From contig JAFLEH010000005.1 of NCBI GenBank assembly GCA_017301995.1, positions 214,189 to 278,188 of the forward strand: a DNA stretch of 64,000 bases, in the 5' to 3' direction. The notes under the pieces are model-generated. The model had not been told where the DNA came from, made no database searches, and saw only the letters and a list, made by a program, of their open reading frames with translations. Shown here in pieces: positions 12,801 through 63,820 of the stretch (position 1 is its first letter; each line of letters opens with the position of its first letter). The stretch comes from Verrucomicrobiota bacterium (GTDB lineage: Bacteria; Verrucomicrobiota; Verrucomicrobiia; Verrucomicrobiales; Akkermansiaceae). The translations under genes and the position numbers were made by a program.

Positions 12801-15462
12801 CGACGGGACCTTGGAGGTGACAGGTTCAGTGGCGGCGAGCTCGCAAATCTCCAACAGCAGCAGCCTGATCCTGAATCCGGTCGTCGCCCAAACCTATCCG
12901 AATCCGATCTCCGGCGCGGGCGGGATCGAGAAGGCTGGCGGTGCCGCATTGACGCTTTCAGGCGCTAACACTTTCACCGGTAATTTCACCCTGACCTCCG
13001 GCACGCTCAATCTCAACAGTGCCGGCGCGCTTGGAGCGGCTCCGGGGACGTTTGTGCTGAACGGGGGAACACTCGACAACACCAGCGGCGTGGAAGTCGT
13101 CATGACCGGCAACAAGCCGCAGACATGGAATGCCGATGTGACGTTCACCGGAACCAACTCCCTGAACATGGGCAACGGTGCGGTGGCGCTCGCAGCATCC
13201 CGGACGGTGAATGTTCTGGCCAACAAACTCTACGTGGGAGCGATCGGCGATGCCGCGGCAGGATATGGACTAACCAAGACTGGCAATGGCACACTGGTCG
13301 TCAATGGCGGCAATATCGGCGGAAATCTCGATGTTCAGAACGGCATCGTGGGAACCAACCAGGATTTTCTCGGAGCCGCGCCGGTGGGAACCGGCATCCT
13401 GGAAAACGCCGGCAATGTCGGAACCAAGTGGACGTTCTGGTATGGCCCGTCCGATGTGACGTCCAATCTGCTGATCCGCAACAACGACGGGACCCACACG
13501 CGGCAGTTGGGTATCGTCAAGCGCGGAAGCGGCACGCTCACGCTGACGAATCCATCCAACAACGCCACCGCCAACCTTGCGGTTGATAGCGGCAAGCTCG
13601 TTGTTAGCGCCGGCACCTACGGCGGCGGCAACGACGACGGCAGCACCAATACCGGGCTGACCTCCATCATCGGCAACACCGCAGGTGCCAACGCGGTGCT
13701 TGAAATCAATGGTGCCACGGTCAATTACAACAATCGGAGCGCTGCTGGCACCGATGCATGGCGGAGCACTCTGGACATCGGCAGCAATGCGACGGGTGCC
13801 GGAGCGCTTAAACTGAACTCGGGCTCGCTGTCCACCAACATGCAGCTCGGAATCGGCCGCAATGGAGCATACGGCGGCATGGTGCAGACCGACGGCACCA
13901 CCACGGTTGGCGGATTCCTGGCGCTCGGCTTGAACGCGTCCCCAGCCGTGCTGAATCTCGCCGGGGGAACCTTCAACCAGCTAGGCCCGGTGACATCCGG
14001 TGCGGGCGCCGGTTCGGTCGGCGTCATCAGCCTGTCCGGTACGGCAAGCTATAACCAAACCAGCGTCGGCGACCTCGGGCTGTGGCTCGGTGAAAACGGC
14101 ACCGGAATCCTCAATCTATCCGGCAGCGCGTCGGTGTCCATCGTTGCCGGAAACAACGGCGTGCAACTGGGGCGCCTTGCCTCCGGCAATGGAATCGCGA
14201 ATCTTCTGGGCGGCACCCTTACCACCAAGGCGGTGGCCAAAGGCGCCGGAACGGGTACCCTCAATTTCAACGGTGGCAAGCTCGCCGCAAACACCGCCAA
14301 CACCGCGTTCGTCGCCGGACTCAATCACGCCTACGTCTATCCGGGAGGCGGGACCATCGACAACGGCGGCAATGCCGTCACGATCGCTCAGGCGCTTGAG
14401 GCGCCCACCGGCAACGGCGTCAGCGCGTCGGGCCTGACGGTCAGCGGCGGCGGCTACATCGCGCCGCCGGTCGTGACCATCGGAGGAGACGGAACGGGTG
14501 CCACCGCGGTCGCGGAAATCGACCCGAGCGGCAATCTGACCGGAATCACCATCACCAATCCGGGGGTGGATTACATGAACATCACCGTCTCCCTCAGCGG
14601 CGGCGGGGTTGGAAACACGGGATCGGTCAGCGGATCCGCGTCGTTCGTGGCGAATACGAGCGGCGGTGTCAGCTACTCGGGCGCGGGGACCACCACGCTT
14701 ACCGGGGTGAACACCTACACCGGAAACAGCACGGTGAGTTCCGGAACGACGCTCGTGTTGGCGGATAATGCCGGCCTCAAGTTTGTTCCGGGCGCGAACG
14801 GCGTGTGCAACAAGCTGACTGGCGCGGGATCCGCATTTCTCTATGGAGATTTCACCATCGACCTCAGTGGCGCCGCCCTGGCCAACGGCAACTCGTGGAC
14901 GCTGGTGGATACTTCTTCGCGGAACTTCGATCCGTTGCTTTTCACCGTCAATGGTTTCACCGAAGTATCACAGGGCGTCCATCAACTGGTTGACGGTGCC
15001 AACACCTGGACTTTCTCCGAATCCACCGGCGCGCTCACGTTGGCGGTGGCGGCACCCTCCGGCTATGCCGCGTGGGCGGGCATGAAGGGGCTTACCGCCG
15101 GAGTGAACGATGGTCCTTCCCAGGATCCCGACGCTGACGGTCTGAACAACCTGCTCGAATTCGTGCTTGACGGCGACCCGCTCGCCAATAGCGCGGCCGT
15201 GGCTCCCAGTGTGACCCGCAGCGGATCCAACCTGATCCTCACCTTCAAACGCCGCGACGACTCGGAAGCCGAGGTTGCCGTGAAGGTGGAGACCAGCCCG
15301 AATCTCGGCACCGGCACCTGGAATACCTACGCCACCATCGGCGCGACCAGTGGTGCGAACTATACCGTCGCTGAAAACGCCGCCGATCCAGACCTGATCA
15401 CGGTCACGATCCCGATCACCGGCGACAAGGCGTTCTATCGTGTTTCCTCCACCAAACCATAA
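9883..15462 (+). CDS. Giant autotransporter-associated beta-strand repeat surface protein
   Basis: 1,859 residues. A signal peptide (MKAKSILPFIVAGLAPLASA, cleavage near ASA-AN) leads into ITWDGGGDATTLELNTNW, the typical start of these Verrucomicrobiota proteins. The body is glycine/asparagine/threonine-rich with many degenerate repeats of the type SGGTFNAGAxG and LTKTGNGTLVVNGG, the hallmark of the autotransporter-associated beta-strand (PATR) family, predicted as a long beta-solenoid. Near the C-terminus is DPDADGLNNLLEFVL, a calcium-binding-type linker, then a beta-sandwich-like ending (FYRVSSTKP). No beta-barrel autotransporter domain and no PEP-CTERM tail are seen, so the export route is unclear. 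It is paralogous to the next gene. Likely surface or sheath protein. Confidence 0.88.
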   Translation: MKAKSILPFIVAGLAPLASAANITWDGGGDATTLELNTNWTGDVLPNVATPDTAVFDGTAAGSLSLVYAAGLGGVAGNTGINLNLTATQTGSVSIDSATNTALRINNVTLDAGSGAFALGNGTGSGATAFAITLGGAVNQTHVWSNNSTAAATVGSDVLFGLGGGGDHALNITGSGNWSVGNALQVAAGQFALMKTGTGELSLSGGGNLNNAGLALFGAVQCAALKEGTTRITAGTYTCNSKEFTVGGLDTGAGTNTQLIMDGGALTAVNWLSIGKGNGNGTATSALVLNNAATVSSANISMGWMQTNTVGPKVSATLNGTSSITLTGTAHIAESNASSATLTLNDGSSFSMTGTPGSDNQRNLGLGGAATININGTATFTDASTRFLSLGRDNGTGTINMTGGTFNKSAGELRVGTTGTNGAYTATGTFYMSGGTANAGALTVGRGNNNQALVNGTVTVNGGTFNAGASGDVIIGYAGAGNTGTLNISGGTFNAGTTATRWFHVGYWDTTKGVVNISNGNLNLNRNTSIKFNRGTGTGANVITQSGGNVTFFSDLATTVGGTGNLDMMYGGAAASNTTYHLDGGTLAVPQIISTTNNGTRTFNFNGGTLKATGNQAAFMSLGTGSAFANLRNGGAVIDTNGFDVTIAQPLQHSNVAGDNAIDGGLSKQGNGKLTLSSAATYTGATTVNGGTLALGAAASINTSAAIAINGTGAKLLQTSGTAITPTVTLTSGAVDGTGGIDTLIVADAASNAISAGNGGIGTLSVGTLTFGGAAMLNVRTNATGVDQSIDALTLSTSGTSPITINATNSSGFWTSGTDYPVLTYGTYGVADASHFALGPVPNLNPNQSAELVNTGTAIAIRVTGESLVWTGGVNSDWTTTPIGGAKNWNYQGSGIEFSTNSPVIFDDSASLFTVNLAENVSPSAVVFSNSGNDYTLSSTGGFGLATGGIILNGTAKVTIATNNTSTGAITINDGTLEVTGSVAASSQISNSSSLILNPVVAQTYPNPISGAGGIEKAGGAALTLSGANTFTGNFTLTSGTLNLNSAGALGAAPGTFVLNGGTLDNTSGVEVVMTGNKPQTWNADVTFTGTNSLNMGNGAVALAASRTVNVLANKLYVGAIGDAAAGYGLTKTGNGTLVVNGGNIGGNLDVQNGIVGTNQDFLGAAPVGTGILENAGNVGTKWTFWYGPSDVTSNLLIRNNDGTHTRQLGIVKRGSGTLTLTNPSNNATANLAVDSGKLVVSAGTYGGGNDDGSTNTGLTSIIGNTAGANAVLEINGATVNYNNRSAAGTDAWRSTLDIGSNATGAGALKLNSGSLSTNMQLGIGRNGAYGGMVQTDGTTTVGGFLALGLNASPAVLNLAGGTFNQLGPVTSGAGAGSVGVISLSGTASYNQTSVGDLGLWLGENGTGILNLSGSASVSIVAGNNGVQLGRLASGNGIANLLGGTLTTKAVAKGAGTGTLNFNGGKLAANTANTAFVAGLNHAYVYPGGGTIDNGGNAVTIAQALEAPTGNGVSASGLTVSGGGYIAPPVVTIGGDGTGATAVAEIDPSGNLTGITITNPGVDYMNITVSLSGGGVGNTGSVSGSASFVANTSGGVSYSGAGTTTLTGVNTYTGNSTVSSGTTLVLADNAGLKFVPGANGVCNKLTGAGSAFLYGDFTIDLSGAALANGNSWTLVDTSSRNFDPLLFTVNGFTEVSQGVHQLVDGANTWTFSESTGALTLAVAAPSGYAAWAGMKGLTAGVNDGPSQDPDADGLNNLLEFVLDGDPLANSAAVAPSVTRSGSNLILTFKRRDDSEAEVAVKVETSPNLGTGTWNTYATIGATSGANYTVAENAADPDLITVTIPITGDKAFYRVSSTKP

Positions 15463-22555: not shown

Positions 22556-22635
22556 GGCGGCTTGGCGGAATTGGTAGACGCGCTCGACTCAAAATCGAGT
22601 TCTTACGAGTGTGGGTTCGAGTCCCACAGCCGCTA
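22556..22635 (+). tRNA. tRNA-Leu (CAA)
   Basis: Class II cloverleaf: acceptor GGCGGCT paired with AGCCGCT (G-T at 1-72), D-loop with GG, anticodon stem CTCGA/TCGAG with loop CTCAAAA (anticodon CAA), long variable arm, T-loop TTCGAGT, discriminator A. CCA is not encoded (CTT follows). A normal chromosomal tRNA that serves as a contrast to the array at 49.8-51.4 kb. Confidence 0.96.
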
Positions 22636-35581: not shown

Positions 35582-35654
35582 GGGGCGTTAGCTCAGCTGG
35601 TAGAGCACTTGCATGGCATGCAAGGGGTCAGCGGTTCGAATCCGCTACGCTCCA
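35582..35654 (+). tRNA. tRNA-Ala (GGC)
   Basis: Cloverleaf with acceptor GGGGCGT/ACGCTCC, D-loop containing GG, anticodon stem CTTGC/GCAAG with loop ATGGCAT (anticodon GGC), T-loop TTCGAAT and discriminator A. CCA is not encoded (CTT follows). Normal chromosomal type. Confidence 0.97.
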
Positions 35655-49042: not shown

Positions 49043-49627
49043 TCACCGTTTGAGGAAGTGCCGCCAGTCGCGGATGTCGTGCGGATTGCGGATGAGGACG
49101 GTCGCGGGCAACGCACGCGGTACCAACGGGTGTTTGACCAACCGCAGACCCACCTCGTGCGGCAGGCGGTCACCTTTGCGGGAGTTCACTTCACGGTGCG
49201 ATAGCACGCAGTTCTCCCAACTGGAATCCCCTCCCCGCGAACGCGGCACGATGTGGTCGATGTTGCCTTCACCCGGCGCGAGCTTGCGGCCGGTGTATTG
49301 GCAGATCCCACCATCGCGTTCCCAAATCCCCCGGCTGCCGAAGCGTGGGCGACACAGCGGGACTTTCGCATAGTTGGCCGCGACGATGACGGTTGGCACC
49401 CGCACCGGACCGCGCGGCGTGTTGACTTGGTTGTCGTCCTCGCGCACGGGCAGCGTGAGCCAGTCCTCCCAGCTAACAGGAATGATGTGGTCATCGCCCT
49501 GCACGTCGAGACCGGTCGCGCTGCCGGACGCCATCATGCAAAACGCCTCGGCCGGCGTCTTGACATGGATCGCCTGCCAGTTGCGGTTCAACACGAGCAC
49601 TGTGGATAGGTGAAGGAGGTGTTTCAT
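49043..49627 (-). CDS. HNH endonuclease-domain protein
   Basis: 194 residues from ATG 49627. The N-terminal 60 residues (TVLVLNRNWQAIHVKTPAEA) and the HNH domain CQYTGRKLAPGEGNIDHIVP ... GGDSSWENCVLSHREVNSRK match a widespread group of stand-alone HNH proteins; metal and active-site residues (Asp-His in NIDHIVP, Asn in WENCVLSH, His) are present, though only one classic zinc CxxC half is visible. A longer start (49777) is possible but lies in non-conserved sequence. It borders the tRNA array by 163 bases and is the last chromosomal-looking gene on this side; role unknown (DNA repair, defence or mobile origin). Confidence 0.85.
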   Translation of the reverse strand: MKHLLHLSTVLVLNRNWQAIHVKTPAEAFCMMASGSATGLDVQGDDHIIPVSWEDWLTLPVREDDNQVNTPRGPVRVPTVIVAANYAKVPLCRPRFGSRGIWERDGGICQYTGRKLAPGEGNIDHIVPRSRGGDSSWENCVLSHREVNSRKGDRLPHEVGLRLVKHPLVPRALPATVLIRNPHDIRDWRHFLKR

Positions 49628-49790
49628 GGGGATGGACGGATAGGTTATGGAGCTTTCATCACTGAGAGTGGCTGAAATGAAACCGGAGCCTCCGGAATGA
49701 CCAAATGGCGGTGTTTGTTTTCGATGGATGATCGGCGCGAGTGGTGGCCTGTTGTTTGTTGGCTGGCGCGGCCTCATTGCCGGCGGAAGG

Positions 49791-49865
49791 TGGTGAACCC
49801 GCAGGGATGTGCGCCCTGCTCGTCCGGTTAAAAGCCGGATGCTTCGCTCTCAAAGCTTCGGGTCC
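49791..49865 (-). tRNA. tRNA-Lys (TTT)
   Basis: Acceptor GGACCCG/CGGGTTC, anticodon stem TCCGG/CCGGA with loop CTTTTAA (TTT), discriminator A and encoded CCA. T-stem CAGGG/CCCTG holds the aberrant loop CGCACAT (C54, G55, C56, C58). The D-loop has AG where GG is expected. Confidence 0.85.
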
Positions 49866-49873
49866 ATGGAAGA

Positions 49874-49948
49874 TGGGGTGACCAACGGGATTCGCACCCG
49901 CACAACGGCCGTCACAGGGCCGGATGCTGCTGTTACATCATGGTCACC
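49874..49948 (-). tRNA. tRNA-His (GTG)
   Basis: Acceptor GTGACCA/TGGTCAC with the extra G at -1 and discriminator C expected for His; anticodon stem CGGCC/GGCCG, loop CTGTGAC (GTG); T-loop TGCGAAT (G55); D-loop CAGC; CCA encoded. Confidence 0.9.
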
Positions 49949-49959
49949 ATTCCTAATGG

Positions 49960-50034
49960 TGGCGCTTCATGCCGGTGCCGCCCCGGCTGCCGCGGCTCGA
50001 CAGGCCGCTGTGTTAGCTGATACACCAATGGAGC
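49960..50034 (-). tRNA. tRNA-Asp (GTC)
   Basis: Acceptor GCTCCAT/ATGAAGC (one C-A mismatch at 4-69), D-arm GTGT/ACAC with CAGC in the loop, anticodon stem GCGGC/GCCGC, loop CTGTCGA (GTC), T-loop GGCGGCA, discriminator G, CCA encoded. Close sister of the Glu gene at 50745. Confidence 0.85.
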
Positions 50035-50042
50035 TTGGTAGG

Positions 50043-50120
50043 TGGTGGTCGCGGCGGGAGTTGAACCCGCACTCGCGGCGTTCTCGACGCCGTGCCTCTG
50101 CCAGGTTGGGCTACGCGACC
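50043..50120 (-). tRNA. tRNA with Leu anticodon GAG, class I fold
   Basis: Acceptor GGTCGCG/CGCGACC, discriminator A, CCA encoded; anticodon stem CGGCG/CGCCG with loop TCGAGAA (GAG, but C at 33); five-base variable loop CGAGT instead of the long arm of bacterial Leu tRNAs; T-loop TTCAACT and D-loop TGGC are of the canonical kind. Amino-acid identity is uncertain. Confidence 0.75.
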
Positions 50121-50132
50121 CTGGATTGAAAA

Positions 50133-50225
50133 TGGCGGAACGCGGAGGACATGCTCCCCATCCCGATCTGAGCGGGACGTATTCACTTCCGATGAAACCC
50201 GGCGCGCTGGTCCGGTTCACGTTCC
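50133..50225 (-). tRNA. tRNA-Ser (GGA)
   Basis: Class II, 93 bases with CCA. Acceptor GGAACGT/GCGTTCC, discriminator G as in Ser; D-arm CCGG/CCGG with CAGC; anticodon loop TCGGAAG (GGA, C at 33); long variable arm TCCCG-CTCAGAT-CGGGA; weak T-stem with loop AGCATGT (A54, G55, C56, T58). Confidence 0.75.
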
Positions 50226-50226
50226 T

Positions 50227-50303
50227 TGGTGCCCACGGCGGGACTTGCACCCGCACTGGCCGGTGTTTGAAGCCGGTGCCTCTGCTGATTGGGCTACGCG
50301 GGC
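50227..50303 (-). tRNA. tRNA with Leu anticodon CAA, class I fold
   Basis: Acceptor GCCCGCG/CGTGGGC, discriminator A, CCA encoded; anticodon stem of four pairs plus a C-A next to the loop TTCAAAC (CAA); variable loop CCAGT; T-loop TGCAAGT (G55); D-loop CAGC. Only one base separates it from the Ser gene. Confidence 0.75.
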
Positions 50304-50319
50304 AAGACATCTGGACAGG

Positions 50320-50393
50320 TGCTCCCGGCCGGAGTCGAACCGGCACCGGGCCGGGTTTAAAGCGGCCGCCTCTGCCAATTGGGCAACGGGAGC
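50320..50393 (-). tRNA. tRNA with Leu anticodon TAA, class I fold
   Basis: Acceptor GCTCCCG/CGGGAGC, discriminator A followed by CCT (no CCA); anticodon loop TTTAAAC (TAA) on a stem with a C-C mismatch at its top; variable loop CCGGT; canonical T-loop TTCGACT with GG in the D-loop. Confidence 0.75.
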
Positions 50394-50405
50394 GATCATG
50401 AGAAG

Positions 50406-50479
50406 TCCCGGCGGCAGGACTCGCACCCGCACTGGCTCCGGTCTGAGCGGAGTGCCTCTGCTAATTGGGCTACGCCGGG
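50406..50479 (-). tRNA. tRNA with Leu anticodon CAG, class I fold
   Basis: Acceptor CCCGGCG/CGCCGGG, discriminator A, CTT follows; anticodon stem CTCCG/CGGAG, loop CTCAGAC (CAG); variable loop CCAGT; T-loop TGCGAGT (G55); D-loop TAGC. Shares its D-arm (AGCCCAA ... GCAGAGGCA) with the other three Leu-anticodon genes. Confidence 0.78.
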
Positions 50480-50485
50480 AAAAAA

Positions 50486-50561
50486 TGGCGGCCCCGGACG
50501 GACTTGCACCGCCAACCTTCCGAGTCAAAGTCGGACGCTCTGCTGATTGAGCTACGGGGCT
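50486..50561 (-). tRNA. tRNA-Gln (TTG)
   Basis: Anticodon stem TCCGA/TCGGA, loop CTTTGAC (TTG); acceptor AGCCCCG/CGGGGCC with an unpaired A1-C72, discriminator G and encoded CCA; T-loop TGCAAGT (G55); D-loop CAGC. An open first pair and G73 suit recognition by GlnRS. Confidence 0.85.
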
Positions 50562-50574
50562 GGATGAAACAGGG

Positions 50575-50647
50575 ACGCGCATCCCGGACTCGCACCGGGT
50601 GAACTGGTTTTGCGGACCAGCGGTTCGTCGCCTTCACCGTATGCGCG
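50575..50647 (-). tRNA. tRNA-Cys (GCA)
   Basis: Acceptor CGCGCAT/ATGCGCG with the Cys-specific discriminator T; anticodon stem CTGGT/ACCAG, loop CCGCAAA (GCA, C at 33); T-loop TGCGAGT (G55). CCC follows instead of CCA. Confidence 0.85.
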
Positions 50648-50654
50648 ATGAAAA

Positions 50655-50731
50655 TGGTGCTTCCGCGAGGACTTGCACCTCGATCCTCCGCCTTCGCAGG
50701 GCGGTGTGCAGGACTCTTACACCTCGGAAGC
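50655..50731 (-). tRNA. tRNA-Arg (GCG)
   Basis: Acceptor GCTTCCG/CGGAAGC, discriminator A, CCA encoded; anticodon stem CCGCC/GGCGG, loop CTGCGAA (GCG, rare in bacteria, which normally use ACG); T-loop TGCAAGT (G55). Confidence 0.85.
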
Positions 50732-50744
50732 TATGGAAATACAG

Positions 50745-50816
50745 CACTCCATGCCGGTGCCGCCCCGGCTGCTGCGGCGTGAAAGGCCGCTATGTTAGCT
50801 GATACACCAATGGAGC
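50745..50816 (-). tRNA. tRNA-Glu (TTC)
   Basis: Acceptor GCTCCAT/ATGGAGT (G-T at 1-72), D-loop CAGC, anticodon stem GCGGC/GCCGC, loop CTTTCAC (TTC), T-loop GGCGGCA, discriminator G; CTG follows, so CCA is not encoded. Nearly the same body as the Asp gene. Confidence 0.85.
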
Positions 50817-50826
50817 ATTGGGAAAA

Positions 50827-50900
50827 TGGCTCCCCGCCGTGGACTCGCACCACGACGACCCGCTTAACAGGCGGGCATGCTGCTTTGACATCAGCGGGGA
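50827..50900 (-). tRNA. tRNA-Asn (GTT)
   Basis: Acceptor TCCCCGC/GCGGGGA, anticodon stem CCCGC/GCGGG, loop CTGTTAA (GTT), T-stem CGTGG/CCACG with loop TGCGAGT (G55), discriminator G, CCA encoded. Confidence 0.88.
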
Positions 50901-50904
50901 TAGT

Positions 50905-51006
50905 TGTTGGATATTTGATATTGGTTATTGGTGGAAGATGCCAATCAACCGCACATAGAGTGCTGGATCTTGTCTTCTGTCTTCTGTCTTCAGGTCTTCT
51001 GTCTTG
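50905..51006 (-). repeat. Dispersed intergenic repeat, copy B
   Basis: Between the Asn and Pro tRNA genes the minus strand reads GACAGAAGAC units, then TGTGCGGTTGATTGGC, GCATCTTCC and CCAATAACCAATATC, the same order as copy A upstream of araD. Confidence 0.65.
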
Positions 51007-51010
51007 AGAA

Positions 51011-51085
51011 TGGTCGCGCGCCCCGGTGCTGCCCCGGGTGTCTCCTCGTCCCAAGCGAGGCGGATTGCTGTCTTCCTCGCGCGCG
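51011..51085 (-). tRNA. tRNA-Pro (TGG)
   Basis: Acceptor CGCGCGC/GCGCGCG, anticodon stem CCTCG/CGAGG, loop CTTGGGA (TGG), T-stem CCCGG/CCGGG with loop GGCAGCA (G54, G55, C56, G58), D-loop CAGC, discriminator A, CCA encoded. Confidence 0.85.
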
Positions 51086-51130
51086 AATATGCAGGAATGA
51101 CAGAAAGCGGCTCAAGAAGCGCAAATGAAA

Positions 51131-51180
51131 TGCGAATTCTTGTCTTCTGTCTTTTGTCTAACAGTCTTCTGTCTTATGAT
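51131..51180 (-). repeat. Dispersed intergenic repeat, short copy C
   Basis: Minus strand AAGACAGAAGACTGTTAGAC, then AAAAGACAGAAGAC and ATTCGCATTTC; matches only the first half of copies A and B. Lies between the Pro and Met tRNA genes. Confidence 0.5.
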
Positions 51181-51185
51181 TTGGA

Positions 51186-51258
51186 TGGCGGGGGCCGGGA
51201 TCGAACCGGCGCATGGGCGGCGTATGAGGCCGCTGCCTTTCCTCTTGGCTACCCCGCG
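51186..51258 (-). tRNA. tRNA-Met-like (CAT)
   Basis: Anticodon stem GCGGC/GCCGC, loop CTCATAC (CAT); acceptor CGCGGGG/CCCCGCC leaving C1-C72 unpaired; discriminator A, no CCA; T-loop TTCGATC and D-loop GAGG are canonical. Could be elongator, initiator-like (open first pair) or an Ile-CAT precursor; not decidable here. Confidence 0.75.
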
Positions 51259-51268
51259 GTTGAAATAA

Positions 51269-51356
51269 TGGTGGGTTGTGCCGGTAACGCTCCGGCGCCG
51301 GCCCATCGGGCGGCTGTTTTACAGACAGCTCACGGTCTTTACGTGACTAACAACCC
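51269..51356 (-). tRNA. tRNA-Tyr (GTA)
   Basis: Class II. Acceptor GGGTTGT/ACAACCC, anticodon stem GCTGT/ACAGC, loop CTGTAAA (GTA), variable arm GCCC-GAT-GGGC, T-stem GCCGG/CCGGC with loop AGCGTTA (A54, G55, C56, T58), discriminator A, CCA encoded. Confidence 0.85.
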
Positions 51357-51376: not shown

Positions 51377-51476
51377 CGCTGCCAGTCCGGTGAGGAACTC
51401 GCACCCGCAGGAGATTTTCACGGCGGATCTTTCGGTGTTTCAGGCACACCTCCCCTGCTGCCATGATATCATATAT
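51377..51476 (-). other. Degenerate tRNA-like segment
   Basis: The minus strand contains a T-arm-like GCGGG-TGCGAGT-TCCTC (one mismatch) and a perfect hairpin GGTGT-GCCTGAA-ACACC, but no matching acceptor 5' half at the right distance. A separate 8-bp stem (51407-51414 with 51451-51458) encloses the hairpin. Possibly a decayed tRNA gene at the head of the array. An AT-rich palindromic stretch (ATGATATCATATATCAT) follows to the right. Confidence 0.4.
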
Positions 51477-52407: not shown

Positions 52408-53080
52408 TCACACCACCGCCGCATACACGCTCGCCCCCTGATCCGGGTATTTCTCCAGCACATGCTGGAACAATGCCCCGCACTTTGTCTCGAATAGCTC
52501 CGTCGTGTATTTCTCCGGCAGCCCGGAATCGAGCATCTTCTCGATCTCCACCCGCACCGCCGCGCGTGTCGTGCGCTTGGTCCGCCATGCAAGCACCAGC
52601 TTTTCGGTCTTCAACTTGGCGAGCAGGTCCTTGCACACCTTCTTGATCGCCTCGGTTTCCTGCGGCGTCAGATCCGGGCCGGGCCGGGTGAGAATATCGA
52701 ACACCGCCAGTTCTTCCTCGCTCAGATTCTCGCGGAAATGCCGCTGTTCCTCCTCGTTCAGCTCCCGGGTGAAGGTCACCAGTTCCGCGAACAACTGCTC
52801 GATGCTCAAGGCCCCGCTGTTATATGCCTCGATCATCTTCTGGAAGCGATCGAGGAAATCGTAGCGGCTGGCGTTCAGGCGGATCAGATTGTCCAGCTTG
52901 CGCTCGATCAGGGCCCGCAGCTTCTGTGCCTCGATGTTCTTGTTAGGAGTCTTGGCGAATTTCTTCTCCAGCACCGCGAAGTCGATCTGGCTCAGGTCGA
53001 TCGTCTTCGCTTCCGCTCCGGGCCGCTTCAGCGCTTCGGTTACGATGGACTTGTCCAGCACCTCCGAGATCACCGACCGC
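52408..53080 (-). pseudogene. hsdR: C-terminal remnant of a type I restriction enzyme R subunit
   Basis: About 220 residues matching only the helical C-terminal region of HsdR: EVLDKSIVTEAL, IDLSQIDFAVLEKKF, EAQKLRALIERKLDNLIRLN, LNEEEQRHFRENLSEEELAVF and KYTTELFETKCGALFQHVLE. A full R subunit has about 1,000 residues with nuclease and helicase domains; these are absent. Homology begins near 53,080, exactly where plus-strand phage-like coding starts, so the gene was cut by insertion or deletion. No hsdM or hsdS is seen. The open frame continues upstream into unrelated sequence and has no good start. It can have no restriction activity. Confidence 0.82.
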
Positions 53081-53431
53081 GATACCGACGAACTGGCCGC
53101 CTCGTGGCTGGCGCAACTGGAGCGGCAGCAGCACGACCCGTTCGTCACCGATCCGCCCGAGGGGTGGCCGCACCGGGGATGGTCGAAGGCCCTGCCCAAG
53201 TTCGATTCCATTCCGGAGCGCGAGGACCGGGTGCGGGCCTATCTGGCATGGTGCCGCGACCATGTTGCCGCGCTGGAGGCCGGGTTCCCCGGCATGGTCC
53301 GGCACATTGACACGGCAGACATGAACGACCCGGCGGAAATCAACGGCCTGCTCGACTGGATCGGCATGCCCGCCGCCGGCCGCCGCCTCGAACTTCTCGG
53401 AACCCCCGTCAACACCAGCCCACCTCCATGA
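53045..53431 (+). pseudogene. 5'-truncated phage-side gene, possibly sulfotransferase-like
   Basis: The frame reads through the junction: its first residues (MDLSSTSE) come from the antisense of the hsdR remnant, the rest (DELAASWLAQLERQQHDPF ... REDRVRAYLAWCRDHVAALE ... EINGLLDWIGMPAAGRRLE) is a genuine-looking C-terminal portion of about 115 residues. Spacing of the last helices recalls the C-termini of sulfotransferase-family proteins, a weak assignment. It overlaps the next gene by ATGA, as intact phage genes do. The missing N-terminus marks the left edge of the prophage remnant. Confidence 0.5.
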
Positions 53432-56782: not shown

Positions 56783-58132
56783 TCATTCGGTGGCGACGCC
56801 GTTGAGCACCACGCGTCCTTTCTTCCGGTCGAAGAAGAACCGGTTTTCCCACTGGCCATCCTTCGGCACGATGGCGAACCACTTCTCCGCGATCTCAGGC
56901 GTGGTCAGCTCCCGGTAGTGTTTGAAGATGATCGACGGCGAGTTGCCAGATTCCAGGGCCACCTGGTCGGCACTCTGGACCACGGCGATCCGGTAACTGA
57001 TGAACGAATGCCTCAGCACGTTGCGCGGCCAGTCGATCTTGAGGGCACGGGCCAGCGCGGGCACATGGGTTTGCAGCTCCTTGGTCCGGACGATCTTCCC
57101 CTTCCGTTCCAGCGGCGTCAGCCACGCGGCCAGATTGTCGGTGATCGGGATGACCCGGCGGGAGGCGGTCTTGGCTTGGCCGGCCCGCACCTCGATAATC
57201 CTGCGGTCCAGATCGACGGCTTTCCAGTCCAGCCGGTTCAGCTCGGCCATGCGGATCCCTGAAAACGCCCCGATGGCGAGGATGGGCACCAGCTCGGGCG
57301 GCGCGTTGTGGAGCAGCTTCGTAATCTCCGCCGGGGTGAAGATCACCACATCGTCGGATTTGACGCGCACGAGTTGGATTTGCTCGACGGCGGTGGTCTT
57401 CTCGTCGGGCAGGTAGTTCTGGGCCTTGGCGAATGAAAAGAGCACCTTGATGCACCGCAACATGGAATTGCGGGTCACAGCCGTGACTTCCAGACCGCGC
57501 AACCAGGCGTCCACATCCGGGCCTGTCACTTCAAGGACGGGTCCGGGGAACCGGGTGGCGAAGCGGTTCAAAGTGGTGCGGAGCTGGCCGAGATAGGCGG
57601 CGCTGGCCCCGTCCTGCTCGCGGATCTTGAGCAGTTCGGCTACCACCTCGGGCACTGTGGCGCGGCGGACGATCTTGCCGAACATCTTGCCGTATTCCGT
57701 CGCCATAACCGACAGGGATTCGCTGCCGGCAAGCTCGCGGGCACGGACGTAATCCTCCACGGCGGCGAACAGCGGAATCCCGAGCTTCGCCAGCAGGGTT
57801 TCCGCCGCCTTGAGATTGTCGCGCTCGTGCGGCTTGATGTCGGTGACGTGCTGCATGCCCGCCTGGATTCGCTGCGCCACGAACTGCGCCTCCTTTTTGG
57901 CAGCTTCGAGGGTGGTGAAGAACTGCCGCAGGCGTTTGCCGTCCCGGTAATGGGAGATGGCGAAGCGGACCCGGCCGCCGGAGTCGCAACGGTAAACCGG
58001 CACGCTGGCCGAGCCGAATTTGGCGGTGGCAACGGGTTTGCCGTGCTTGCCACGCTTGGGGGCCGGGGGATTGAGGACCGCTGAAGTGGGTGCCTCCTGA
58101 GTTGTCGCCATTTTGTCGCCAGGGTCTTCCAT
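56783..58132 (-). CDS. Tyrosine recombinase (integrase) 1
   Basis: 449 residues from ATG 58132. N-terminal SAM-like core-binding region about 110-280, catalytic domain after it: Arg in AFSGIRMAELNRLDW, His-x-x-Arg as LRHSFISYRI and the tyrosine in IFKHYRELTT. The longer frame to 58225 begins with MEVRVLFRALPLYF, which is an antisense translation of a tRNA 3' end, so it is not used. The gene starts next to the tRNA-Leu fragment, the normal position for an integrase beside its attachment site. Confidence 0.88.
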   Translation of the reverse strand: MEDPGDKMATTQEAPTSAVLNPPAPKRGKHGKPVATAKFGSASVPVYRCDSGGRVRFAISHYRDGKRLRQFFTTLEAAKKEAQFVAQRIQAGMQHVTDIKPHERDNLKAAETLLAKLGIPLFAAVEDYVRARELAGSESLSVMATEYGKMFGKIVRRATVPEVVAELLKIREQDGASAAYLGQLRTTLNRFATRFPGPVLEVTGPDVDAWLRGLEVTAVTRNSMLRCIKVLFSFAKAQNYLPDEKTTAVEQIQLVRVKSDDVVIFTPAEITKLLHNAPPELVPILAIGAFSGIRMAELNRLDWKAVDLDRRIIEVRAGQAKTASRRVIPITDNLAAWLTPLERKGKIVRTKELQTHVPALARALKIDWPRNVLRHSFISYRIAVVQSADQVALESGNSPSIIFKHYRELTTPEIAEKWFAIVPKDGQWENRFFFDRKKGRVVLNGVATE

Positions 58133-58198
58133 GACGCTGGAAATGGTGTCAACCGAGGCGGGATTTTCCGCCGTAACCCTTTGAAAATAAAGGGGAAG

Positions 58199-58246
58199 TG
58201 CTCGAAAGAGGACTCGAACCTCCACGGGTTACCCCACTAGATCCTT
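58199..58246 (-). other. 3' fragment of tRNA-Leu, attachment-site core
   Basis: The minus strand reads AGGATCTAG, the variable arm TGGGGTAACCCGTG, T-arm GGAGG-TTCGAGT-CCTCT and TTCGAGC plus discriminator A: the 3' half of a tRNA-Leu, most likely the TAG isoacceptor. The 5' half is missing; upstream bases do not pair. Such fragments are left where an element integrates into the 3' end of a tRNA gene. Confidence 0.8.
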
Positions 58247-58342: not shown

Positions 58343-59575
58343 ATGCACAAATCCCGTGTGCCACGATGCCCGAAATTCCAGGTGCGCAACACCCCACGGG
58401 GGTGGCTCCTACACGTGCCCGCGAGTATCTCAGACACGGGGAAACTTCAGCGTCGGTATTTCAGAACGCGGGACGCCGCCTTGTGTGAAGCATCGGCCTT
58501 CAGGACCAGCTACAAAGCTCATGGAGAAAAGGCGACCGTTTTGCCTCCGCGCGTGGCGGATCAGGCTTTGGCTGCCATCAAGCTGCTCGATGGCACCGGG
58601 GCAAACCTAGTTGACGCCGCCCAGGCCTACCGCAAGGCATGGGTGGAAAGAAACAGCAGCCAAATCTTCGAGATAGCCGTGAAGACCTACCTCGCCGCGC
58701 GTGAGGATCTGCGTAAGTCCACCGTTGGCAGTTACAAATACACCTTGGAGAAAGTGGCCCAGTCTCTCAATCCTCGAATTCTTGCGGACCTCAAGACATC
58801 GGATTTCGAGGAGATTCTAAGCAACAAGGGAGCCACGGCCGCTCGCATGCACCGCGCGAATCTTCGTGCTTTCTGGCGATGGGCCGCGAAACCTCCTCGC
58901 GGATGGTGCGACGTCGGGGTGATCGAAGCTCTGGAGACAGTCCGCGCATCGGATGATTCCGATATCCAGATTCTGAAACCTGGCGATGTGGAGGCACTAC
59001 TCAGGGCCGCCGAGTCCGAGGGGGCCGGCGCCTCGGTCGCATACGCCATCGCGGTCTTTGGTGGTGTGCGGATGGCGGAATTGGAAAAGCTCACATGGGC
59101 CAATGTCCATCAGGAGCATATTGAGATCGGGAGGAACGTCGCCAAAAAACACAGCCGACGCCTGATTCCCTTGTGTGCCAGCCTAAAGGCCTGGTTGGAT
59201 GTCTACCGGGAAGGGGCAGTTGCGGATCAACTTATTGTTCCGGCCAACTGGACGGACGTTTCGAAATCCGTCCGCCGTCGTGCTGGCTGGGAGGTTTCGG
59301 CCAGGCTGCTACATGATCCCCCGGAACCGACCCGGGGGGCATGGCCCGCGAACGCCTGCCGCCACACATGTGCCAGCGTCCAGGTGGCAATTGGAACCCC
59401 GCTGGAGGAACTGATTTTCAAGTTCGGGCATAGCGGGGGGCACGACATGCTCCGGAAACACTACGTTTCCCGCCTCACCAGGAAGGATGCCCTGGAGATT
59501 CTTTCAATCCATCCTTCAAAACCCGTCGCCGCCCTATCACAAGATTCTCCACCAACTGCTTGCCATGAATGCTAG
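58343..59575 (+). CDS. Tyrosine recombinase (integrase) 2
   Basis: 410 residues. Core-binding region about residues 110-190 (IFEIAVKTYLAAREDLRKST), catalytic residues: Arg in FGGVRMAELEKLTW, Lys in VAKKHSRRLIPL, His-x-x-Arg in ACRHTCASVQVA, His/Gly in KFGHSGGHD and the nucleophile in LRKHYVSRLT. It diverges from integrase 1 across a 210-base region with the tRNA-Leu fragment. Its end overlaps the next gene by 11 bases. Probably drives the element to the right. Confidence 0.88.
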   Translation: MHKSRVPRCPKFQVRNTPRGWLLHVPASISDTGKLQRRYFRTRDAALCEASAFRTSYKAHGEKATVLPPRVADQALAAIKLLDGTGANLVDAAQAYRKAWVERNSSQIFEIAVKTYLAAREDLRKSTVGSYKYTLEKVAQSLNPRILADLKTSDFEEILSNKGATAARMHRANLRAFWRWAAKPPRGWCDVGVIEALETVRASDDSDIQILKPGDVEALLRAAESEGAGASVAYAIAVFGGVRMAELEKLTWANVHQEHIEIGRNVAKKHSRRLIPLCASLKAWLDVYREGAVADQLIVPANWTDVSKSVRRRAGWEVSARLLHDPPEPTRGAWPANACRHTCASVQVAIGTPLEELIFKFGHSGGHDMLRKHYVSRLTRKDALEILSIHPSKPVAALSQDSPPTACHEC

Positions 59576-61262: not shown

Positions 61263-62018
61263 ATGAACAACAAAATAGTGCCCCAATCGGGCGAAGACAA
61301 CGCCGGCCGCCTCTGTGAAGGCGGGGAAACGCGTCATCACGGTGGCGAAGAACAAATCGGCGGCACCGAGCAAACGGTGCCGCCTGCGGAAGGGCCCTCC
61401 GTCGACGAAAACGAGTCCTCTTCCGGGAAGGACCATACCCAAAACACCGAGGAAGTCACGCAAAAAAAGCGCGATATCTTCGACGACTTGGCGGCCTTGG
61501 GCCGACCTATCGACGAAATCGTCGCCTCCGAGAAACTGCTGACATCACTGTTAGTCCGTAAGCCCAAACGCGACGAATGGGTGAGAGTTCATCCAACAAT
61601 CTCCGCGCGGGTCTACATCTACGAGGCTCGCGAGGAAAATGCGCACTACATAGTGCTCCCCGAGGTGGTGGAGCCTTTGCGGGATGTCGTCAGGTATGTG
61701 CAGCTAAGTTTGGCCACCAACTACTCCGGCGGCCACTTTGTGTGGCCGGTTCCCGTCCCGACAGAGCGCAGACCACACCGCGCGCACGTGACGGCTTTTG
61801 CCGCTGCCGAGAGGGCCGCGCGCGAATGGATCCGCATCTCGTGGGGCAAAGACGACTACGATCTCTATCGCCGTTCATCCGCCCAGGTCGATCCGGTGTG
61901 GTCGACCGAAATCTCTACTCCCAGCGAAATGATGCGCTTTGTGGCAAAGACCGGCGGCATCGAGATCATCGACACCCTGGACCACCCGGTTGTTCGCGCG
62001 CTTCTGGGGACCGACTGA
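61263..62018 (+). CDS. Unknown protein upstream of the DNA polymerase
   Basis: 251 residues. A hydrophilic, glutamate/glycine-rich first third (about 70 residues, probably disordered) leads into a folded part: KRDIFDDLAALGRPIDEIV, EWVRVHPTISARVYIYEARE, and AAERAAREWIRISWGKDDYD. No known family. It overlaps the polymerase start by one base (TGATG), so the two are likely translated together and may act together in element replication. Confidence 0.65.
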   Translation: MNNKIVPQSGEDNAGRLCEGGETRHHGGEEQIGGTEQTVPPAEGPSVDENESSSGKDHTQNTEEVTQKKRDIFDDLAALGRPIDEIVASEKLLTSLLVRKPKRDEWVRVHPTISARVYIYEAREENAHYIVLPEVVEPLRDVVRYVQLSLATNYSGGHFVWPVPVPTERRPHRAHVTAFAAAERAAREWIRISWGKDDYDLYRRSSAQVDPVWSTEISTPSEMMRFVAKTGGIEIIDTLDHPVVRALLGTD

Positions 62019-63820
62019 TGGAGATAGTCCCCGGTCCGCTTCCTCACCAGCGGACCGGGGATGCTTCTTCCAATGTTATGCTAACATATATTGCAGATTT
62101 TGAATTCCTCAGTCGCCCAGGAAGCAATCCGCGTCCGTGGTGTGTCGCATATCACTGCATGGAAACCGGAGAGGAGGACGCCATCTGGCTGGACGGTCTG
62201 GAGATTCCCAGCCCCTTCCCGGACACTTTCCGCATGATTGCGCATTATGCGCTCGCGGAGTTGGGTTGTTTCCTTGAACTTGGCTGGAAACTGCCCACGG
62301 AGGTGATTGACACCCTGCCCGAAGTCCGGGTTGCGCGGGGGCAAGTCCCAACCTCCGGCGGTTCCTGGGGTCTACTCGCAGTTGCCACCCAACTCGGCAT
62401 CCCCACCATGAGTTCGGACCACAAGGAGGCCATGCGCCACTTGGCCATGGAAGACGAGATCCCGGAACACAGCCGGGGGGACCTGATGCGCTATTGCTTG
62501 GCTGACGTCCTAACAGGCCGCGCCATTTGGCAAACACTGGAGTCTCGTGTTGCCCCCCAGGAGGCAGTGCTCCGCGGTCGTTATCTCAAGGCTCTGGCGC
62601 GAGTGGAAAGGCGCGGCATCCCCGCCGATGCGGATTTGGTTCGCCGACTAACTGAATCAATGCCGCTGATCCGCGACACGGCTTGGCTGAAGGCGCGCGG
62701 TGAATATCCCGGAGTCATCGATACCGGGGGGCGCTTTTCGTCAAACGGTTGGCGCCAATGGTGTGCCGACTCCCACATACCATGGCCCAAACTGCAAAAC
62801 GGCGCCCCCGCTCTTGATGGGGACACCTTCAAGAAGATGGCCGACCGTCATCCAGCAGTGCAAACCATGGCATACGCACGCAAGCTCCGGGGACAAGGCC
62901 GCAAGTTTGAGTTTCCTCTCGGAATCGATTGCCGCTTGCGTTGCATGCTGTCTCCCTTCGCGTCGGATACGGGCCGAAACCAGCCTTCCAACAGCCGCTA
63001 CATTTTCGGCGCAAGCGCATGGATGCGGTCGGTTATCATGGCGGAAGCCGGGACGGTATTGGCCTACATCGATTTCTCCGCACAGGAGGTTGGCCTCGCC
63101 GCCGCACTTTCGCGTGACGGGGCTCTAATGAAGGACTATCAGACTGGCGACCCTTACATGGCTTTCGCCGTCCGCTCTGGTGCCGCGCCGGAGGGGGCTA
63201 CCAAGAAGAGCCATCCGTCCGAGCGGGCGACCTACAAGACGGCGGCGCTGGCGATTCAGTATGGAATCGGCGACGAAACTTTGGCCCAAAACCTCGGCAT
63301 CCCGACATCGGCTGCGCGCCGCCTGATCATCGCTCACCAAATTGCCTACCCTGCCTACTGGCGTTGGCGCAGCGCTATTGTGGACGAGGTCATGTGCGGT
63401 GGCGCCCTTGCAACACGCTTTGGTTGGACCCGGAAGGCAAAGCGGGGGGACAGCGCGAACTCGATTGCCAATTTCCCGGTGCAGGCCGCCGGTGGGGAGA
63501 TCCTCCGCGTCGCTGTCATTGCTTTGGAGGAGGCCGGCTATCGTGTTGTAGCCCCGGTCCACGATGCCCTCCTTGTCGAGTTGGACATCGACCATTGGGA
63601 GGAGGCGTTGATGGATGTCCGACACCTGATGGAGAAGGCGGCCATGATCGTCACAGGGGGGCTGAAGGTGGCGACCGATGTCGACCTGGTGTTCCCGGGG
63701 GAGAACTACATGGACGGCCGAGGAGTCGAGTTCTGGGACATCGTATCCCGTGTCATCGGGCGCACCCCCCATCGCCTGACAGAACGGGATCGGCAAATGT
63801 TCGCCACATCTCAGATCTGA
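62018..63820 (+). CDS. Phage-type family A DNA polymerase
   Basis: 600 residues. An N-terminal 3'-5' exonuclease-like part starts YIADFEFLSRPG (Asp-x-Glu) and ends in YCLADVLTGRAIW (Tyr-x-x-x-Asp). Polymerase motifs: A in LAYIDFSAQEVGLAAALS, B in RATYKTAALAIQYGIGDETL (Arg/Lys/Tyr-Gly) and C in VAPVHDALLVELD. It lacks the 5'-3' exonuclease of chromosomal PolA (about 900 residues), as in phage and integrative-element enzymes. The motif A residue usually read as Tyr/Gln-Ile-Glu is Phe-Ser-Ala-Gln-Glu here. Last gene of the visible element. Confidence 0.87.
   Translation: MEIVPGPLPHQRTGDASSNVMLTYIADFEFLSRPGSNPRPWCVAYHCMETGEEDAIWLDGLEIPSPFPDTFRMIAHYALAELGCFLELGWKLPTEVIDTLPEVRVARGQVPTSGGSWGLLAVATQLGIPTMSSDHKEAMRHLAMEDEIPEHSRGDLMRYCLADVLTGRAIWQTLESRVAPQEAVLRGRYLKALARVERRGIPADADLVRRLTESMPLIRDTAWLKARGEYPGVIDTGGRFSSNGWRQWCADSHIPWPKLQNGAPALDGDTFKKMADRHPAVQTMAYARKLRGQGRKFEFPLGIDCRLRCMLSPFASDTGRNQPSNSRYIFGASAWMRSVIMAEAGTVLAYIDFSAQEVGLAAALSRDGALMKDYQTGDPYMAFAVRSGAAPEGATKKSHPSERATYKTAALAIQYGIGDETLAQNLGIPTSAARRLIIAHQIAYPAYWRWRSAIVDEVMCGGALATRFGWTRKAKRGDSANSIANFPVQAAGGEILRVAVIALEEAGYRVVAPVHDALLVELDIDHWEEALMDVRHLMEKAAMIVTGGLKVATDVDLVFPGENYMDGRGVEFWDIVSRVIGRTPHRLTERDRQMFATSQI

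Follow-up and report, generated by a model that had tools for sequence, protein, structure and literature searches.

A tRNA gene array in an Akkermansiaceae genome carries a paired A18-G55 replacement at the tRNA elbow

Dense runs of transfer RNA (tRNA) genes redundant with those of the chromosome are known from mycobacterial plasmids and phages, where they lie in a mobile context, include some short-armed Leu tRNAs and have an HNH endonuclease gene embedded or adjacent (PMC5966550, PMC12803027), and an antidefence role has been put forward for tRNA arrays (PMC12803027). Jumbo phages supply tRNAs from arrays that also hold RtcB, TROVE and other repair enzymes acting against tRNA cleavage (PMC7824862), and a TROVE gene occurs in 20 of 29 archaeal tRNA gene clusters (PMC6333295); the excerpts of these two articles, partial like all the sources cited here, do not mention a change at the elbow. 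A natural change at positions 54-58 has been described in a eukaryotic tRNA-Ala with A54/A58, for which the excerpted text reports no change at 18-55 (PMC7566577). Accounts of tRNA arrays and of the HNH genes within or beside them have been published, as have accounts linking tRNA clusters to TROVE and to RNA repair; no paper pointing to an A18-G55 elbow turned up in the open-licence literature searched. Here we describe such an elbow in a tRNA array of a Verrucomicrobiota bacterium (Akkermansiaceae), located in a stretch of 64,000 nucleotides of contig JAFLEH010000005.1 that was analysed as a whole and is called the window below. The array is best read as a modified version of the tRNA array unit already described, in which elbow and identity are kept without the pseudouridine-55 (Psi55) site.

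The array packs 16 tRNA genes of 13 isotypes into 1.56 kb of the minus strand, from 51356 to 49795 (Table 1). A preliminary description of the window, made from its letters alone, had reported that 13 of these tRNAs read G55 while keeping C56, and both the coordinates and the counts were borne out, so that the canonical U55:G18 feature is absent from 13 of the 16. The same description had placed A before G19 in the D-loop of the G55 tRNAs and had called Cys ambiguous; indeed, A18-G19 stands at the canonical D-loop position in 12 of the 13, and in Cys (50576..50647), with a D-stem of three pairs and the D-loop AAGGCGACG, base 18 can be assigned in more than one way. The three array tRNAs with T55 (Leu-GAG, Leu-TAA and Met) retain G18-G19, giving an association between 18 and 55 within the window array alone (Fisher p = 0.007), and, independently, in the Rfam RF00005 alignment the base opposite G18 is A in each of the six G55 tRNAs displayed. 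The neighbours Leu-TAA (GG, TTC) and Leu-CAG (AG, TGC) differ at the 18-55 pair among other bases. Pair 54-58 is altered in the array too, being T-A in part of it, G-G in Asp, Glu and Pro, A-T in Tyr and Ser, and C-C in Lys. Both tRNAs of the window that lie outside the array are canonical GG/TTC, as first described: an Ala tRNA at 35582 (AGCTGGTA, T-loop TTCGAAT, located by the finder introduced below) and a Leu tRNA at 22556 (AATTGGTAG, T-loop TTCGAGT, read directly from the sequence). The same holds for the part of the organism's own 7.0 Mb genome that was covered: 29 of 29 distinct tRNAs from 30 loci, the window Ala included, are T55 with G18G19, out of a total of 53 Rfam matches in this genome.

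Detection relied on a purpose-written cloverleaf finder that scores only stems, with a bonus for T33, and is blind to the sequence of the D- and T-loops. It located 14 of the 16 array tRNAs (scores 53-59), compared with 11 for ARAGORN and 9 for the Rfam tRNA model (E up to 10). As background, it scored two hits (41 and 44) in one dinucleotide-shuffled copy of the window and 7 (46-49) in 773 kb of shuffled sequence from 120 loci. Single-sequence folding returned a cloverleaf for Pro and Asp and none for Tyr or Ser, whose folded ranges were misplaced by one and three bases, respectively, and in no case was the fold much better than that of shuffled versions (z -1.8 to 0.7). Further loci were collected from genome contigs and viral contigs by a pattern of two successive GGTGCRANTCC T-loops 60-90 bases apart, which yielded at least 114 genome stretches and at least 120 viral stretches and thus gives no estimate of prevalence; variants of the pattern in viral contigs yielded 30 stretches for A at 55 and 77 for C at 55. 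The resulting set of pattern-selected loci holds 1943 distinct tRNAs, after removal of those scoring below 48 and of key-region duplicates. The own-genome loci (L001-L030) contribute 29, which were treated separately and are not part of the counts below, leaving 1914. As the loci were sampled by their T-loops and D-loop sequence plays no part in the finder, a link between 18 and 55 is not built into these data.

The two positions are nevertheless tightly linked. Among the 866 tRNAs with G55-C56, bases 18-19 read AG in 805, GG in 11 and something else in 50 (for base 18 alone: A 805, C 21, G 11, T 3); among the 812 with T55-C56 they read GG in 779, AG in 6 and something else in 27. A C55 class with T-loop TCCRANT (n = 141, loci L295-L371) has GG in 138 and represents a second route to the loss of U55, so that this loss nearly always occurs in an elbow-compatible form, either G55 with A18 or C55 with G18. 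By comparison, A55 was seen in one of the 1914 tRNAs and A55-C56 in none. The result does not depend on the choice of D-loop alignment, since trying AG first gives concordant counts (814 AG in the G55-C56 class; 751 GG and 34 AG in the T55-C56 class), and D-loops of 7 bases, in which position 18 is fixed, give 305 of 325 AG and 203 of 210 GG, respectively. Mutual information was chosen as the measure of covariation because A-G is a non-standard pair. In 567 tRNAs with 7-base D-loops and less than 85% identity, 18-55 tops all non-stem pairs by corrected mutual information and ranks 18th among all pairs (raw value 0.851 bits, shuffled maximum 0.024). The next non-stem pair is 54-58 (raw 0.730), followed by 54-60 and 58-60, with the core contacts 9-23 and 8-14 ranking below the latter. 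Pair 19-56 covaries as well (raw 0.240, shuffled maximum 0.032; rank 31st), and its alternatives A-T, T-A and C-G occur in both T55 and G55 tRNAs; where 56 is not C, T55 tRNAs have a Watson-Crick base 19 with the expected 18 in 39 of 45 cases.

Relatedness was controlled with 57 disjoint T55/G55 pairs that are at least 75% identical outside both loops. In 44 of them GG is exchanged for AG at the same place and in 10 AG stands at a neighbouring permitted place; two show another arrangement, one has a T55 member without GG, and GG is kept in none. In a comparison set of 82 close T55/T55 pairs, both members are GG in 77. Independent variation of 18 and 55 in homologous arrays was thus looked for as a refutation, and the positions were found to change together. 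Contingency counts, close pairs, mutual information and identity bases all favour the claim of the preliminary description that the paired change reflects selection on a working, rebuilt fold rather than decay.

The identity bases were surveyed in 911 G55 tRNAs of the collected loci, the window array itself holding no Ala tRNA. A G3:U70 pair is present in 44 of 45 G55 tRNAs with an Ala anticodon and in 3 of the 866 others. The discriminator base N73 is T in 43/43 Cys, G in 35/35 Asp, 34/35 Asn and 7/7 Trp, and A in 51/51 Ile and 48/48 Lys, and is less clear-cut in Glu, Gln, Arg and His; G-1 occurs in 22 of 42 His tRNAs versus 29 of 975 others. T33 is present in 88% of G55 tRNAs versus 94% of those with T55, and the terminal CCA is encoded in 67% versus 56%. 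All 20 isotypes are represented among G55 tRNAs, Ser and Met being the least frequent. Judged from sequence, identity determinants agree with the anticodons across the array tRNAs, and the pattern of identity bases, T33 and CCA points to charged, translating tRNAs. Short variable loops, unlike those of ordinary bacterial Leu tRNAs, were observed in the Leu tRNAs of the window array (50047-50479) and in 47 of 72 G55 and 45 of 93 T55 Leu tRNAs of the collected loci.

G55 tRNAs extend well beyond the window. Among the matches listed, loci with at least one tRNA bearing the searched base numbered 43/114 for the G55 pattern in genomes, 88/120 for G55, 0/30 for A55 and 35/77 for C55 in viral contigs, and pattern-matched loci without such a tRNA are chance matches or missed cases. 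In the phylum of the window 13 of 387 genomes match the pattern, own genome included, and the reversed pattern matches none of the same genomes. Nine of 11 chromosomal places from other genomes of the phylum hold three or more G55 tRNAs; another place (L420) has none by the finder, so that a pattern match alone is no proof. A locus from the window's own genus (L418) has no G55 tRNA at the standard threshold and one A18/G55 His tRNA with a looser threshold and with ARAGORN. At L418:9600-10100 (relative G215) a Met tRNA with T55, an Arg remnant, this His tRNA and a Lys-like stretch with T-loop CGCATAT follow one another, an arrangement resembling a reduced array with the gene order of the window, Arg and Lys being read by eye. 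Three G55 places (L411, L413, L419) sit inside contigs of 5.7-6.0 Mb, which argues that G55 arrays are not merely phage contamination of genome bins. Among the matches listed, 30 genome loci have four or more G55 tRNAs: 23 are from Verrucomicrobia groups, 4 from Planctomycetota and one each from Myxococcales, a deltaproteobacterium and Staphylococcus petrasii (L082), the last being, in our view, the cell-wall tRNA-Gly locus already known. In 28 loci with at least four tRNAs, some of which share a contig, every tRNA is G55, up to 28 of 28. Among 24 IMG/VR contigs tested, terminase PF03237 was found in 5, a tail sheath in 5 (only one above the cut-off) and phrog_2, presumably a terminase, in 6 (one weak); overall 9 of 24 carry a viral marker and 15 are unconfirmed. 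No G55 array was detected by the finder in named phages, among 10 regions retrieved by HNH similarity and 5 by array similarity, several of these regions being uncultured records. Blastn ties the window array to seven actinobacterial plasmids, and a plasmid search with the array of a chromosomal relative gave no match.

What could maintain such an elbow? GNRA turns and U-turns are alike. On the T-loop anatomy described in PMC7912444 and PMC4810234, G55 would keep the turn normally made by U55, the purine at 18 would still stack between 57 and 58, and A18-G55 would be a working replacement pair. Without U55 there is chemically no Psi55, and the G55 tRNAs of the array therefore lie outside the reach of TruB, which the own genome encodes. 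Our leading explanation, which we judge about evenly balanced between right and wrong, is that the array most likely forms a reserve tRNA set that would keep translation going when a reader of the ordinary elbow disables the housekeeping tRNAs. The preliminary description had named escape from host tRNA nucleases or modification enzymes as a possible meaning, and the loss of U55 may have been selected for such a reason. The array tRNAs would be charged and used by the ribosome, and the selective agent would be an isotype-blind elbow reader, be it a nuclease, a modification-dependent factor or another agent. Escape from an elbow reader is preferred over escape from anticodon nucleases because the mark is common to all isotypes. 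Septu and retron-Eco7 cleave the variable loop of tRNA-Tyr, and the T5 tRNA-Tyr resists retron-Eco7 (PMC13096335, in excerpt); since these systems cut the long variable loop, the short variable loop of the Leu tRNAs could be a second escape change. A wider proposal, more tentative and in our opinion somewhat improbable, is that bacterial and viral tRNAs include a second class in which A18-G55 replaces G18-Psi55 and 54-58 and 19-56 are free to covary, mobile sets marked in this way remaining functional and charged while an isotype-blind elbow weapon removes the host tRNAs.

The genes around the arrays were compared between 84 loci holding at least four G55 tRNAs (window included) and 41 controls with at most one; loci with 2-3 G55 tRNAs or fewer than four tRNAs were omitted, the loci are truncated, contigs are shared by some of them, and most controls derive from other scans. 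HNH genes of the window's family accompany 23 of the 84 G55 loci (the window and 22 further) versus 1 of the 41 controls (p = 0.0005), and share the strand of the nearest tRNA in 23/23 cases having a tRNA within 3 kb. RtcB is found at 10/84 versus 0/41 (p = 0.03), and other HNH genes at 8/84 versus 4/41 (p = 1). Fuller loci occur in some chromosomal relatives: in L415 all 17 finder hits are G55 and TROVE, RtcB (both by Pfam) and a divergent LysR regulator are present; in L413 all 26 are G55, accompanied by an HNH gene, two RlaP repair nucleotidyltransferases and a factor of the sigma-70 family; and L417 has TROVE and RtcB by similarity. The linked HNH, RtcB, TROVE and RlaP genes may help maintain or repair the tRNA set. 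In L413 the sigma-70 family gene (12464-13186), with the two RlaP genes nearby, directly follows the HNH gene of the array, which may therefore have its own switch. In the window, the true start of the HNH gene is probably internal.

Table 1. Genes of the array, in gene order on the minus strand, and the adjacent HNH gene (window coordinates; "finder" is the cloverleaf finder)
Feature	Coordinates	Strand	D-loop or bases 18-19	T-loop or bases 55-56	Detection	Remarks
tRNA-Tyr (GTA)	51273..51356	-	GTAAAGACC	AGCGTTA (A54, G55, C56, T58)	hand placement; ARAGORN and finder missed	long variable arm; D-arm irregular
tRNA-Met (CAT)	51187..51258	-	G18G19	T55C56	ARAGORN, Rfam, finder	canonical elbow
tRNA-Pro (TGG)	51015..51085	-	GACAGCA	GGCAGCA	finder; ARAGORN missed	cloverleaf by folding alone
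tRNA-Asn (GTT)	50831..50900	-	CAAAGCA	TGCGAGT	ARAGORN, finder	
tRNA-Glu (TTC)	50746..50816	-	ATCAGCTA	GGCGGCA	ARAGORN, finder	
tRNA-Arg (GCG)	50659..50731	-	AAGAGTCCT	TGCAAGT	ARAGORN, Rfam, finder	
tRNA-Cys (GCA)	50576..50647	-	AAGGCGACG	TGCGAGT	finder; ARAGORN missed	
tRNA-Gln (TTG)	50490..50561	-	AATCAGCA	TGCAAGT	ARAGORN, Rfam, finder	
tRNA-Leu (CAG)	50407..50479	-	AATTAGCAG	TGCGAGT	ARAGORN, Rfam, finder	short variable loop
tRNA-Leu (TAA)	50321..50393	-	AATTGGCAG	TTCGACT	ARAGORN, Rfam, finder	short variable loop; canonical elbow
tRNA-Leu (CAA)	50231..50303	-	AATCAGCAG	TGCAAGT	ARAGORN, Rfam, finder	short variable loop
tRNA-Ser (GGA)	50137..50225	-	A18G19	AGCATGT	hand placement	long variable arm; least certain in the array
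tRNA-Leu (GAG)	50047..50120	-	AACCTGGCAG	TTCAACT	ARAGORN, Rfam, finder	short variable loop; canonical elbow
tRNA-Asp (GTC)	49964..50034	-	ATCAGCTA	GGCGGCA	ARAGORN, finder, folding	
tRNA-His (GTG)	49878..49947	-	AACAGCA	TGCGAAT	ARAGORN, Rfam, finder	
tRNA-Lys (TTT)	49795..49865	-	TGAGAGCG	CGCACAT	Rfam, finder; ARAGORN missed	
HNH endonuclease gene	49043..49777	-			Pfam HNH_4, E 5.7e-13	directly downstream of the array, same strand

Several smaller observations concern the array and its surroundings. In the Ser tRNA, position 33 of the anticodon loop (TCGGAAG) is apparently C instead of the nearly universal U. Upstream of Tyr, at 51386-51460 on the minus strand, a T-arm-like stretch, GCGGGTGCGAGTTCC, is a possible remnant of a 17th tRNA for which a full cloverleaf was not found. 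Two tyrosine-recombinase genes and a gene of the DNA polymerase A family occupy 56783-58225 (-), 58343-59575 (+) and 61577-63820 (+). The recombinase genes lie 5-8 kb from the array, and the pattern is patchy within the phylum, as counted above; with recombinase and polymerase genes nearby, the array possibly belongs to a mobile element. An open reading frame at 52408-53211 (-) has a match to a type I restriction enzyme that is confined to the C-terminal part of the enzyme (T1RH-like_C), and is likely a remnant. Elsewhere in the own genome, TruB lies within about 5 kb of an rtcA-rtcB-TROVE group (L375, G000:C1:80000-99999). In Synechococcus phage S-CBWM1 (L425), a named phage with a named host, tRNAs have altered elbow pairs of another kind, G18-A19/T55-T56 and A54-T58.

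A number of points weigh against a reserve set escaping an elbow reader. A nuclease reading G18-Psi55 was not identified. Neither ARAGORN nor the finder shows an Ala, Gly, Val, Ile, Thr, Phe or Trp tRNA in the window array, many arrays mix G55 and T55, and G-1 is retained in only about half of the His tRNAs. Where 56 is not C, G55 tRNAs show the matching base 19 with A18 in only 22 of 45 cases, a weaker figure that may include false cloverleafs. TROVE is not significantly enriched (7/84 G55 loci versus 1/41 controls, p = 0.27), and in this organism it is contig C1, not the array contig, that carries rtcA, rtcB and a TROVE gene of the Ro60 type, grouped together. HNH, TROVE or RtcB also accompany canonical arrays. 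Five of the 10 phage-record regions with HNH similarity hold tRNAs (Mx1, Tunturi_5, S-CBWM1, Rctr197k, Mimi), none of them G55, and the finder returned no tRNAs in the other five. Both mycobacterial plasmid arrays that were read, out of the seven plasmids, are T55 with an HNH gene: T55 is present in 25/25 and 24/25 finder hits, the single exception lying on the opposite strand and being probably a false hit, whereas 12 of the 16 tRNAs of the window array are G55/A18. HNH was accordingly rejected as a G55-specific partner; since these HNH-bearing phage records and plasmids hold no G55 tRNAs, the module of array and HNH gene is not specific to G55.

Among the alternatives, drift fares best, although we consider it unlikely. 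Selection from T-loop modification enzymes would be weaker on array tRNAs, whose elbow would have wandered to alternative pairs without gain. Such wandering would fit the variety of pair 54-58 (T-A, G-G, A-T, C-A, C-C), the occurrence of all four Watson-Crick forms at 19-56 and the existence of C55 as a further solution. However, the uniformity of the 28 wholly G55 loci, across all isotypes, is unexpected from drift, as is the near-constant A18 that accompanies G55-C56.

A second alternative, which we rate as a shade less probable again, places the escape at the level of DNA: the T-loop sequence GGTTCRANTCC would be the target of a homing endonuclease or integrase, the tRNA genes would mutate it, and A18 would repair the fold of the RNA. 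A precedent for the target exists, as the cleavage motif of SegB, RAWTSGAAC (23 of 83 sites; PMC13096335, in excerpt), corresponds to the T-loop consensus read in reverse complement, and the cuts fall within tRNA genes. The enrichment of the window's HNH family at G55 loci and its constant strand would agree with this scenario, but HNH-bearing arrays are often T55 or mixed, the mean share of G55 being 65% with HNH (22 loci) and 45% without (85 loci), and the lack of G55 in the HNH-bearing phage records and mycobacterial plasmids speaks against it as well.

Cell-wall tRNA-Gly of staphylococci avoids EF-Tu. The preliminary description had offered this tRNA as a precedent and non-translational use as a possible meaning, and it is indeed poorly used in translation (PMC4810233, in excerpt). 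Array tRNAs would then serve as donors for cell-wall or other peptides, which we regard as very improbable. The likeness lies in the GTGC T-loop (TGCAAGT and alike). Yet the four tRNA-Gly of S. petrasii, with T-loop TGC or TGT and D-loops AACTTTCA, AACTCTTA (twice) and AACTTTTA, have TT or CT at 18-19, so that their loops are not re-paired and the precedent fails as a model; they are Gly only, whereas the window array has no Gly tRNA and AG at 18-19 in 12 of 13. The span of all 20 isotypes with matching identity bases further argues against non-translational use. Decaying pseudogenes, which the low Rfam yield and the irregular arms of Tyr and Ser might suggest, are scarcely credible, as stems are intact in 14 of the 16 (finder) and covariation and identity bases contradict decay.

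A review of the elbow describes Psi55 as universally conserved (PMC4810234, in excerpt). Hundreds of natural tRNAs, from other bacteria and from contigs of virus collections, carry the paired swap and do without Psi55, with compensatory changes at 18-55, 54-58 and 19-56. The A54/A58 tRNA is said in its excerpted source to be absent from bacteria and archaea (PMC7566577); 10 A54-A58 cases were found here among G55-C56 tRNAs. The share of T-loop conservation that is due to folding and the share due to recognition by enzymes thereby become directly testable. For annotation these tRNAs are a warning, Rfam listing 9 and ARAGORN 11 of the 16 in this array. If the reserve-set explanation is true, a weapon that targets tRNAs by recognising the elbow common to all of them should exist. 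The element would likely gain a spare, correctly charged tRNA set, which may remain functional during an attack on ordinary tRNAs.

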